Shown here: positions 55,461 through 58,238 of the stretch, piece by piece
Layout: each line of letters starts with the position of its first letter
How positions within the stretch are numbered: position 1 is the stretch's first letter
Assembly: GCF_000420485.1 (NCBI RefSeq)
Contig: NZ_ATVA01000001.1
Location: forward strand, 1 to 64,000
Length of the DNA: 64,000 nucleotides
Origin: Paucidesulfovibrio longus DSM 6739
GTDB lineage: Bacteria > Desulfobacterota > Desulfovibrionia > Desulfovibrionales > Desulfovibrionaceae
Direction: 5' to 3'
The notes under the pieces: generated by a model
What the model was told of the DNA's origin: nothing
The model's database searches: none
What the model saw: the letters and a program-made list of their open reading frames with translations, nothing else
Position numbers and translations under genes: made by a program

Positions 55461-56000
55461 ATGTCCGAACCGATGAATCCAGAGGCCGATCCCGTTCTGG
55501 CCGCCATCCGCGAACGGCGCTCCATCCGCCGCTACAGCGGCGAACATCTCTCCAAAGAGGAAATCCTGACCGTGCTCGAGGCGGGCCGCTGGGCTCCGAG
55601 CGGGCTGAACAACCAGCCCTGTCGCTTCCTGGTGCTCCCGCCGGACGACCCGCGCCGGGAGGGACTGACCGCACATACCAAATACGCTCACATCGTGCGC
55701 ACCTGCGACGTCATGATCGCCCTGCTGCTGCGCAAGGACAAGCTCTACAACGCCCGCAAGGACCACCAGGCCGCCGGGGCCAGCGCACAAAACATGCTGC
55801 TCGCGGCCCATGCCCTGGGCCTGGGCGCGGTCTGGCTCGGCGAGATCATCAACCAGGAATCCGAGGTGCTCCAGGTTCTGGGCCTGGACAGCGAGGTCTA
55901 CGAGCTTCAGGCCGTCCTCGCCCTGGGCCGCCCCGCCCAGAAGGGCAGCTCCGAGCGCCTGCCCCTTTCCGAAATCGTCCTGGAGGGCTTCGCTTCATGA
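55461..56000 (+). CDS. nitroreductase-family FMN protein
   Basis: A 179-residue nitroreductase: FMN-binding RRSIRRYSGE, AGRWAPSGLNNQPCRFLVL and the C-terminal glycine helix AAHALGLGAVWLGEI. AGAGGAG precedes the ATG. Its stop overlaps the start of the metallo-beta-lactamase gene, so the two are coupled in a small redox operon that runs to 57469. Confidence 0.92.
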   Translation: MSEPMNPEADPVLAAIRERRSIRRYSGEHLSKEEILTVLEAGRWAPSGLNNQPCRFLVLPPDDPRREGLTAHTKYAHIVRTCDVMIALLLRKDKLYNARKDHQAAGASAQNMLLAAHALGLGAVWLGEIINQESEVLQVLGLDSEVYELQAVLALGRPAQKGSSERLPLSEIVLEGFAS

Positions 56001-56623
56001 AAGTGACTGCACTGAACCTCGGCCCCCTTGAAACGAACTGCTTCGTCTGCTCCGAGGCGGGCAAGGCCGTGGTCATCGATCCGGGCGGGGAGCCGTCCGC
56101 CGTTCTGAAAATCCTCCGGGCCGAGAAGCTCGAACCGACGCATATTCTGGTCACGCACCTGCACTGTGACCATATATATGGTTGCAAGGCCCTGGCCGAG
56201 GCCACGGGCGCGCCCGTGCTGGCATCCGCAACGGATGACTTCCTGATGCAGACTGAAGTCGGGCGCGGCGGGCTGTTCGGCCTGCCCCTGGTGGACGAGT
56301 TCGCCTACGCCGACCTCAAGCCCGGCAAGCATGAATTCCTGGGCCTGGAGTGCCGTGTCCTGGCCACGCCGGGCCACACGCCCGGCAGCCTGACCTTTTA
56401 TTTCCCCTCGCAGGGGCACGCCTTCGTGGGCGACCTGCTCTTCTACCGCTCCGTGGGGCGGACGGATTTCCCCGGCGGAAGCAGCGAAACCCTGAGCCAA
56501 TCGGTCCGCAGCGAGATATTCACCCTGCCGGGAGAGACCGTGATCCACCCCGGCCACGGACCGGACACCAGCGTGGGCGACGAGAAGCACCACAATCCCT
56601 TTTTCGCGGGGTTTCAGCCATGA
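55997..56623 (+). CDS. MBL-fold hydrolase (glyoxalase II/persulfide dioxygenase type)
   Basis: The 208-residue protein has the metal motif THLHCDHIYG (HxHxDH with a Cys), TPGHTPGSLTFYF, VGDLLFYRSVGRTD and a terminal HPGHGPDTSVGDEKHHNPF. This is the small YcbL-like branch. It is joined by ATGA overlaps to the nitroreductase upstream and to the selenoprotein downstream. Confidence 0.9.
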   Translation: MKVTALNLGPLETNCFVCSEAGKAVVIDPGGEPSAVLKILRAEKLEPTHILVTHLHCDHIYGCKALAEATGAPVLASATDDFLMQTEVGRGGLFGLPLVDEFAYADLKPGKHEFLGLECRVLATPGHTPGSLTFYFPSQGHAFVGDLLFYRSVGRTDFPGGSSETLSQSVRSEIFTLPGETVIHPGHGPDTSVGDEKHHNPFFAGFQP

Positions 56624-56847
56624 ACGTGAAGCACCGCCTGGACCTGCGCGGCAAATGCTGAGGCGTGGGCATGGAGATAGGCTGGTATCTCCGCTTCACC
56701 AGGGATGGGGCCATCGAGGCGCTCATCGACGAGGCGCAGCTCGCCCAGATCGAGCACGCCCTCTACATCGTGCCGGAATGGACTTTTGAGACGTTCCGCG
56801 AGAACGGCCATCTGCGCGTTCTCCTGAGCCGGAAACAAACGATCTGA
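56620..56847 (+). CDS. predicted TusA/SirA-like selenoprotein (in-frame UGA as selenocysteine)
   Basis: Reading from ATG 56620 (overlapping the MBL stop as ATGA) gives MNVKHRLDLRGKC, then TGA (56659-56661), then GVGMEIGWYLRFTRDGAIEA and on in the same frame to TGA 56847: 75 residues, normal for TusA (about 80). The opening LDLRGKC is the TusA/SirA signature (usually LD-RG--CP), so TGA replaces the Pro after the active Cys, giving a Cys-Sec pair. The later RDGAIEALIDE and EWTFETFRENGHLRVLLSRK follow the family order. A SECIS-like hairpin follows. Read as two genes, neither half would be complete. Probable sulfur/selenium or redox transfer with the neighbouring MBL and flavoprotein. Confidence 0.85.
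56673..56692 (+). promoter_or_regulatory. bacterial SECIS element
   Basis: A perfect 7-bp stem GGAGATA / TATCTCC closes a 6-base loop GGCTGG. The loop starts 18 bases after the UGA and begins with GG, both inside the range known for bacterial SECIS elements (apical loop about 16-37 bases after the UGA, G among the first loop bases). Confidence 0.8.
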
Positions 56848-56872
56848 TTCGATCAGCAAGGAGCATACGGAC

Positions 56873-57469
56873 ATGAGCAATCCCCTTCTGTTTCAATGCA
56901 GCCACCGCGCCCAGGGCAACAGCAACAACGCCGTGAACCTCTTTCTCGAAGGGGTCCGCGAGGCGGGCGGCGACGCCGAAAGCATCTACATCCGCAAGAT
57001 GGACTTCAAGCCCTGCCGCGCCTGCCGCATCTGCGAAAAGGACCAGGCCAGCCCCTGCGCGCTCCAGGGCAAGGACTACGCCCTGGATCTCTTCGAAACC
57101 ATGCTCGCGGCTCCCTTCGTCTTTTTCGCCGCGCCGATCTACTTCTACCATCTGCCCTCCCGGCTGAAGACCCTCATCGACCGCAGCCAATGGGTCTACG
57201 CCCGCAAGATGAAGAACGATCCCGAAGTGGCGGGCCGCCCGAAGCGCCCGGCCTATCTCGCGCTCTTCGCGGGACGCACCGAGGGCGAAAAGCTCTTCGA
57301 GGGCTCCCGCTTGACCATGAAATACTTCCTGGACAGCTTCAATCTGGAGCTTCAGCCTCCGCTGGAATTCCGGGGATTCGACAAGATCGCGGACATGGAG
57401 CGCCATCCTGAAGCCGCCGAGCAGATTCGCAGCCTCGGCCGCGACGCCTGGAAAAACCACGCGGGCTGA
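56873..57469 (+). CDS. NAD(P)H-dependent FMN reductase (flavodoxin fold) with Cys cluster
   Basis: The 198-residue protein starts LLFQCSHRAQGNSNNAVNLF, a flavodoxin-like phosphate loop, has the KPCRACRICEKD Cys motif typical of iron-sulfur/multimeric flavin reductases, and VFFAAPIYFYHLPSRLKTLIDRS. It lies 25 bases after the selenoprotein and is a candidate electron donor for its Cys-Sec pair. Confidence 0.85.
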   Translation: MSNPLLFQCSHRAQGNSNNAVNLFLEGVREAGGDAESIYIRKMDFKPCRACRICEKDQASPCALQGKDYALDLFETMLAAPFVFFAAPIYFYHLPSRLKTLIDRSQWVYARKMKNDPEVAGRPKRPAYLALFAGRTEGEKLFEGSRLTMKYFLDSFNLELQPPLEFRGFDKIADMERHPEAAEQIRSLGRDAWKNHAG

Positions 57470-57479
57470 TCGCGGCGCC

Positions 57480-58238
57480 ATGCCCGGAGCGCTCAGCCGA
57501 CTGCTCCGCTCGTTCGGGCGGCGGACCGGGATTCTCCAGGTCCGCTGCCCGGCCTGCGGCGTGCCCGCCCCCGCGGACAGGGCCGACGGGCTTTGTCCCG
57601 GCTGCGCGGCCGCCCTGGCTCCCCGGGAGGGCGGCTTCTGCCCCGGCTGCGGAGCCATGTTCGGCCTGGAGAGCTACGAGCCCGCGCTCTGCGGGGATTG
57701 CCGCGCCGCGCCGCCGCCCTGGGGGCGCTTCATTTTCCACGCGCGCTACGACGACCCGCTGCGCGGGCTGATCATCGCCTTCAAGTACAACGCCGGGCTG
57801 GAGCATTCCGCCCTGCTGCGGAGCATGGCCGCCTCGGCCTGGGAGCGGGCCGTGAACCAGCCTTCGGAATTCGCGCCGCCCCCGCGCAGGCCCGACCTGG
57901 TCGCGCCCGTGCCCCTGCACGGGAAACGACTGCTCTGGCGCGGCTTCAACCAGAGCCTGGAGCTGGCCTCGGCCGTGGCCGCGCGCGCCGGCGCGCCGCT
58001 GGAGCCGGCCGCGCTGCAACGGCTGCGCGACACCCGGCCCCAATCGACCCTTTCCGGCAGCGAACGGCTGACCAACCTGCACGGCGCGTTCGAGGCGGAC
58101 GCGGCCCTGGTGGGCGGCAAGCGGGCGCTGCTGGTGGACGATGTCTGCACCACGGGCTCCACCCTGCGCGAATGCGCGAAATCTCTGCTCGAAGCAGGCG
58201 CCAAAGCAGTTGACGTACTCGTGCTTGCCAGGGCATAA
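57480..58238 (+). CDS. comF: ComF-family phosphoribosyltransferase-like protein
   Basis: The 252-residue protein has N-terminal zinc-type Cys pairs (CPACG, CPGCA, CPGCG, CGDC), then FKYNAGLEHSALL and a PRT domain with PVPLHGKRLLWRGFNQSLEL and the PRPP loop RALLVDDVCTTGSTLRE. ComF acts in DNA uptake in competent bacteria; role here unknown. Confidence 0.9.
   Translation: MPGALSRLLRSFGRRTGILQVRCPACGVPAPADRADGLCPGCAAALAPREGGFCPGCGAMFGLESYEPALCGDCRAAPPPWGRFIFHARYDDPLRGLIIAFKYNAGLEHSALLRSMAASAWERAVNQPSEFAPPPRRPDLVAPVPLHGKRLLWRGFNQSLELASAVAARAGAPLEPAALQRLRDTRPQSTLSGSERLTNLHGAFEADAALVGGKRALLVDDVCTTGSTLRECAKSLLEAGAKAVDVLVLARA

Follow-up and report, generated by a model that had tools for sequence, protein, structure and literature searches.

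Proteins of the TusA/SirA family (PF01206, which includes YeeD/TsuB) carry a reactive residue, normally a cysteine, just before the first helix. In TusA, Cys19 accepts persulfide sulfur, and in the E. coli protein the conserved Asp45 and Asp51 lie near this Cys (PMC2854127). The Cys of the corresponding motif in YeeD reacts with thiosulfate and releases sulfide (PMC11073785). A SirA-type domain has also been tied to selenium in YedF, the "selenium metabolism protein", which combines a SirA domain with a C-terminal DsrE domain.

According to Table 1 of a 2026 inventory (PMC13188914), there are 119 selenoprotein families, including DsrE-like, rhodanese-like and YeeE/YedE proteins. YedF is absent from it, and no family in that table is listed under TusA, SirA or PF01206. 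Several bacterial selenoproteins have a vicinal Cys-Sec (CU) motif, namely HgcA, SaoL, SaoC, MbdU and KCU-star, and none of these is placed under PF01206 in the inventory. Neither TusA nor SirA is mentioned in the accessible portions of the main texts of PMC12013277, PMC9312934, PMC2398784, PMC1088965, PMC5029168 and PMC8318568, and no Sec-containing TusA or SirA was found in the open-licence literature, as far as its accessible portions go. A first-pass annotation of the DNA discussed here had described SirA-like selenoproteins as known. In the accessible portions of that literature, the SirA-like proteins are YedF and others whose SirA domain is connected with selenium or sulfur metabolism, rather than a SirA containing Sec, and no support for the description was found.

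The window analysed is a stretch of 64,000 nucleotides from Paucidesulfovibrio longus DSM 6739 (positions 1 to 64,000 of contig NZ_ATVA01000001.1). Within it, 56620-56847 very probably encodes an unannotated selenium-containing protein, seemingly truncated by a stop codon (Table 1). The listing of ordinary open reading frames holds only two in this frame, a 103-residue ORF that ends at the TGA and a 60-residue ORF from GTG 56665, in line with the first-pass annotation, where gene calling yields no gene or a 58-60-residue fragment after the UGA. With the TGA translated as Sec, the sequence is MNVKHRLDLRGKCUGVGMEIGWYLRFTRDGAIEALIDEAQLAQIEHALYIVPEWTFETFRENGHLRVLLSRKQTI, in which the TGA is the sole interruption; this is the normal-sized protein with an LDLRGKC N-terminus that had been proposed. 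Start codon and upstream stop share the sequence ATGA, and the preceding gene has the same type of overlap, as the annotation had also remarked. Among the 60 codons downstream of the TGA, the two members of a same-genus pair (L009 and L010) differ in frame by 15 synonymous and 13 non-synonymous changes, as against 4/24 and 2/21 (synonymous/non-synonymous) in the other two frames. This pattern implies that the frame after the TGA is not there by chance.

Table 1. Features of the selenoprotein locus and its neighbours in the window.
Feature	Position	Strand	Details
Nitroreductase-family gene, first of conserved run	55461..56000	+	Pfam PF00881; neighbour conservation
MBL-fold hydrolase gene (glyoxalase II-like), ATGA overlap with selenoprotein start	55997..56623	+	Pfam PF00753; NCBIfam GSH_gloB below cut-off; neighbour conservation
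Predicted selenoprotein gene	56620..56847	+	75 aa; Sec is residue 14 (MNVKHRLDLRGKCUGVG...)
Cys13 codon, vicinal to Sec	56656..56658	+	Cys in 82/83 distinct TGA-containing sequences, Gly in 1 (L122)
In-frame TGA, codon 14, read as Sec14	56659..56661	+	Aligned with reactive Cys of TusA
SECIS-type hairpin	56673..56692	+	7-bp stem GGAGATA (56673-56679) / TATCTCC (56686-56692), loop GGCTGG (56680-56685)
FMN reductase-type flavoprotein gene, CxxCxxC...C	56873..57469	+	Pfam PF03358; neighbour conservation
ComF family gene, last of conserved run	57480..58238	+	NCBIfam comF and GntX below cut-off; neighbour conservation

We put the probability that this product is a selenoprotein with a TusA-type fold at roughly 0.93, a figure that does not extend to its mechanism. 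This reading follows from the computed evidence taken together: the reading frame, the conserved TGA, the Sec machinery, a hairpin under selection, a Cys-containing relative, the predicted fold and the conserved gene run.

The protein was compared with 59 related genomes, of which 31 gave a match, each with exactly one in-frame stop, and this was always TGA. A profile was built from 31 members (L039 was omitted because it comes from the same contig as L010, which lies wholly inside it) and run against 348 genomes of the order, the Desulfovibrio-type bacteria. It matched 168 of them. The gene thus occurs in about half of the genomes searched in this order, and the annotation models searched (Pfam and NCBIfam) do not include it. 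The match contains a TGA in 165 of the 168, and the remaining three (G074, G240 and G243) have only stop-free matches. The 165 comprise 150 listed genomes, with one row each and all with TGA, and 15 of the other 18 genomes on a renewed search; a further stop is present in three of the 150 rows (a TAA in G293, a second TGA in G219 and G220). For most of these genomes it is known only that the match contains a TGA, its position having been read in 83 distinct sequences. In all 83 it falls in the same column, and it is preceded by Cys in 82. The stop at this site is TGA and neither TAA nor TAG, and the downstream frame is conserved across relatives. In the 31 aligned members, all of which were drawn from matches with a TGA, conservation extends jointly over the LDLRxKC ahead of the TGA and the protein that follows.

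In a sample of 395 genomes from the phylum, six match, every one from the family to which the window belongs. A single-sequence scan of a collection of genome contigs found two relatives, and the same kind of scan of viral contigs found none. Within this sampling, the selenoprotein family looks restricted to the Desulfovibrio-type order. Three of the sequences deserve individual mention. L122 (G227) has Gly-Sec in place of Cys-Sec and a hairpin with 7/7 pairs, the TGA having persisted after loss of the vicinal Cys. L081 (G293) has the extra internal TAA and is probably a decayed copy. L121 (G311) is strongly diverged, yet retains Cys-TGA and 6/7 stem pairs.

Relatives with Cys in place of Sec are also found. 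A second-round listing of 33 genomes gave 49 rows, 19 of them stop-free, and 16 of the 19 are second copies beside a TGA form. Fourteen of the stop-free rows were read. In thirteen, namely L099 and 12 paralogs, the Sec position is occupied by Cys, and the match of the other, L114, misses the site. L099, from G074, is flanked by MBL and flavoprotein genes as the Sec form is, and reads DLRQACPCTLTRD. Its counterpart in G073, a genus mate, is DLRRVCUGLTRD, so that L099 has Cys at the Sec position and one inserted residue. The best SelB match in G074 scores 92 bits, below the cut-off of 242, whereas G073 and G042, of the same genus, have TGA forms together with SelB at 383 and 374 bits; this is a single case of Cys for Sec where SelB is unmatched, and the G074 genome is 85% complete. 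The 12 Cys-type paralogs (L100, L109-L113 and L115-L120), from the same order, have the motif DLREVCCGLVP or xCGLVP. They match the profile and have no TGA; in all 12 the Sec position is a Cys, and the residue before it varies (C, V, T, A or K). No Pfam match was obtained for the three that were scanned, and none of the four neighbours turned up next to the paralogs. Together with L099, they provide natural controls.

The genome from which the window is taken (3.70 Mb, 99.99% complete) contains a tRNA-Sec (86.3 bits; cut-off 47), as well as SelA (596 bits), SelB (368 bits) and SelD (324 bits), and thus has all four of selA, selB, selC and selD. The SelD match itself contains one TGA. A second match to the tRNA-Sec model, 77 bases long and scoring 47.1 bits, probably represents an ordinary tRNA. 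SelB is above the cut-off in 52 of the 59 related genomes, and two of the seven others, G002 (89% complete, in about 230 contigs) and G015 (95% complete, in about 430), have the TGA gene. Contigs missing from these fragmented assemblies may explain the two cases.

The TGA is followed by a SECIS-type hairpin. The first-pass annotation had placed a 7-bp stem with a GG-starting loop 18 nt after the UGA; the stem and loop are as described, and the 18 nt is the distance to the start of the loop, with the stem starting at 11 nt. No Rfam family matches over 56500-56900. The hairpin was analysed in the 83 distinct sequences by comparison with 1000 redraws, in which synonymous codons were taken from the downstream parts of the same genes. 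The seven stem pairs are formed in 532 of 581 instances, against 375 +/- 8.5 expected and a maximum of 406 among the redraws, and all seven are present in 58 of the 83 sequences (redraw mean 3.2, maximum 10). Because the 83 sequences are related to each other, the analysis was repeated with one sequence per genus, in 24 of the 25 genera matched in the first search. This gave 152/168 pairs against 112 +/- 4.6, and all seven pairs in 13 genera against 0.8 expected (maximum of 5 in 5000). When one arm of the stem was slid by one to three bases, the 24 genera formed 62 to 120 pairs. Eleven of the 24 lack at least one pair, and L013 and L022 form 4/7. Folding energy alone gives a weaker signal (mean z -1.57; 33/83 at p < 0.05).

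The substitutions in the stem are informative. Pair 18-29 is A-T in 29 sequences, G-C in 36, G-T in 16, G-G in 2 and A-C in none, and follows the sixth codon after the TGA: where this encodes Ile the pair is always A-T (29/29), and the G-C, G-T and G-G pairs all occur with Val or Ala. Pair 14-33 is G-C in 74, C-G in 5, T-G in 1, C-C in 2 and G-A in 1. The Leu codon at +10 is CTC in 73 of 83 sequences, compared with 14/114 further downstream, where CTG accounts for 60/114. Codon choice thus maintains the hairpin beyond what the protein itself requires, and compensatory changes occur. In the Cys paralogs, where no stem is expected, 1 to 6 of the 7 pairs can form (highest in L116, with 6, and L120, with 5), and the Cys relative L099 has 3/7.

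It is worth adding that the loop may occur in more than one form. In the 58 sequences whose 5' arm ends in A, the next codon is GGT in 41 and GGG in one, whereas in the 21 whose arm ends in C (for example L013, L016, L023, L029, L033, L036 and L038) it is GGG in 13. The split would fit the use of a second type of loop.

These observations bear on two simpler accounts of the TGA. It could be a true stop, the remainder being a separate 60-residue gene from GTG 56665 or a remnant. An ordinary ORF of that kind does exist, and L081, with its extra TAA, is probably a decayed copy, but the joint conservation of LDLRxKC and the protein after the TGA in the 31 aligned members (all chosen from TGA matches), the codon choice that holds the hairpin, and the Cys relative L099, which reads straight through the site, leave this account a negligible probability. 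A very slight chance is also given to the TGA, predicted from sequence to encode Sec14, being read by a near-cognate tRNA as another residue, Trp or Cys. Against such a reading stand the full Sec machinery, a SECIS-like hairpin of bacterial type, and the presence of Cys at the site in the sole case without a SelB match (L099, in G074). The hidden selenoprotein proposed in the first-pass annotation is upheld by the sel genes, by the TGA in 83 of 83 stop-containing sequences, by the conserved downstream frame and by the existence of a Cys relative.

For the fold, an AlphaFold2 model was calculated from the 31-sequence alignment, with Sec entered as Cys. It has a mean pLDDT of 89.6 and the order beta-alpha-beta-alpha-beta-beta. 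In Foldseek the top match is TusA (3lvj) at E 0.0021, followed by YeeD and a SirA-like protein, with none below E 0.001. VIA-align gives YeeD/TsuB at Z 11.0 (rmsd 2.0, 72 residues aligned), the SirA-like protein 3hz7 at Z 10.0 (rmsd 1.9, 69 aligned) and TusA 3lvj at Z 9.6 (rmsd 2.4, 72 aligned), with the Smr and Alba folds lower, at Z 8.1-8.5. The predicted structure is therefore likely to be a TusA fold, by a modest margin over other folds. Sequence profiles do not make the same connection. Pfam and NCBIfam gave nothing beyond chance for the window protein and the 31 members, the TusA model being unmatched in the 31 at E up to 1, and a sequence-profile search of the PDB returned two matches only, at E 0.5. 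The genome of the window has a separate match to PF01206. The earlier assignment to the TusA/SirA family thus agrees with the predicted fold, and is not borne out by the profiles.

In the structural alignment residue 1 of the model corresponds to TusA residue 6, which places U14 on Cys19 if no gap precedes it. When the family was aligned globally by profile with 23 TusA domains from relatives, at an hhalign probability of 4.5% and solely for the register of the Cys, U14 coincided with the TusA Cys and G15 with the first Pro. The local hhalign alignment with the same domains (probability 17%) misses the Sec site. Sec14 is in the place of the reactive Cys of TusA and Gly in that of its Pro, so that CPxP becomes UGxG, and Cys13 is an extra residue. 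The first-pass annotation had read the change as Cys-Pro to Cys-Sec, and the register of this weak global alignment differs, with Cys13 additional to the TusA motif.

The product thus resembles TusA/SirA proteins in its predicted fold, the order of its elements, the N-terminal LDxRG and the reactive residue just before helix 1. It differs in having Sec for Cys, an extra preceding Cys, UGxG for CPxP (from a consensus in which Sec is shown as C), and no profile match. Unlike E. coli TusA with its Asp45 and Asp51, the family alignment has no invariant or nearly invariant Asp beyond position 8. It shares with YedF a SirA-type domain tied to selenium, but is a single 75-residue domain that contains Sec, with no DsrE match in the 31 members. 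The vicinal Cys-Sec is the feature that it shares with the CU-motif selenoproteins.

In mammalian thioredoxin reductase, a Cys-Sec pair forms a selenylsulfide. Since Sec with a vicinal Cys could do so here too, a redox cycle on sulfane sulfur fits the family better than a plain carrier, and we tentatively suggest that the protein uses its Cys-Sec pair for redox catalysis on sulfane sulfur. The Sec selenolate would attack a sulfane-sulfur species, where persulfide, polysulfide, thiosulfate and tetrathionate are guesses at the substrate. Cys13 would then resolve the adduct to a Cys-Sec selenylsulfide, with release of sulfide or thiosulfate. The product of the adjacent flavoprotein gene, our guess for the reductant, might re-reduce the selenylsulfide directly or via a thiol carrier. 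It is possible, at a little under even odds, that this is the first TusA-fold family to have Sec for the sulfur-carrying Cys and a vicinal resolving Cys, by which a sulfur carrier would have become a selenium-based reductase or a sulfane-sulfur-releasing enzyme in sulfate-reducing bacteria. The predicted family would add to the Desulfovibrio-type order a selenoprotein in a fold missing from the 119-family inventory of 2026 (PMC13188914). Ordinary ORF calling splits or drops such a gene. Selenium would here be placed where sulfur-relay proteins hold their persulfide, which would make sulfur and selenium chemistry comparable within one fold.

The same selenoprotein could serve other purposes. 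Its Cys-Sec pair might bind or transfer a soft metal or metalloid such as mercury, arsenic or copper, since the CU motif recurs in HgcA, the MerB-like SaoL, SaoC, a CopZ-type (2Fe-2S) protein and the metal-binding MbdU (PMC13188914). We consider this unlikely, as the conserved run (nitroreductase, MBL hydrolase, flavoprotein, ComF) has no recognised metal-resistance gene, and L122 retains its U behind Gly. Delivery of selenium or sulfur, for example towards SelD as proposed for YedF, is likewise improbable. It would accord with the association of SirA-domain proteins with selenium metabolism in the accessible literature, with the gene in G032, which lies about 1.1 kb from selB, and with a DsrE-like protein encoded upstream in L029 (Pfam E 0.00028, narrowly missing the cut-off). 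Genomes such as G003, G005 and G029 have SelB and not the gene, which is thus not needed to make selenoproteins; moreover, a carrier that itself requires Sec is circular, though the same can be said of SelD.

In loci L009-L040 (n=32, with L010 and L039 on one contig) the flavoprotein gene is downstream in 28 and the MBL gene upstream in 27; the MBL gene is about 1.1 kb away in L017, L019 and L025. All four neighbours are absent at L016, L027, L036 and L038. The four cysteines of the flavoprotein (CxxCxxC...C) are invariant in all 28 aligned loci, one pair of which is from the same contig. They may bind an iron-sulfur cluster, in an arrangement that we presume to resemble that of the archaeal iron-sulfur flavoprotein (Isf). 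NCBIfam has no good model for this flavoprotein.

The gene run was also analysed at 26 loci with an MBL gene, 22 from genomes unmatched in the first search and four from holders of the selenoprotein (G007, G011, G026 and G032), in which the selenoprotein is located elsewhere. The flavoprotein is downstream in 19 of the 26, and in 18 of these the gap up to its aligned start is at most 100 bases, too small for the selenoprotein. Given that many genomes have the run without it, the flavoprotein is not dedicated to the selenoprotein, which is an optional member of the run. A fixed partnership between the two, considered as a candidate, is weakened by the same loci. Outside the usual run, L038 has a VKOR-DsbA fusion-like ORF downstream and an Aat-like ORF upstream, as judged by eye.
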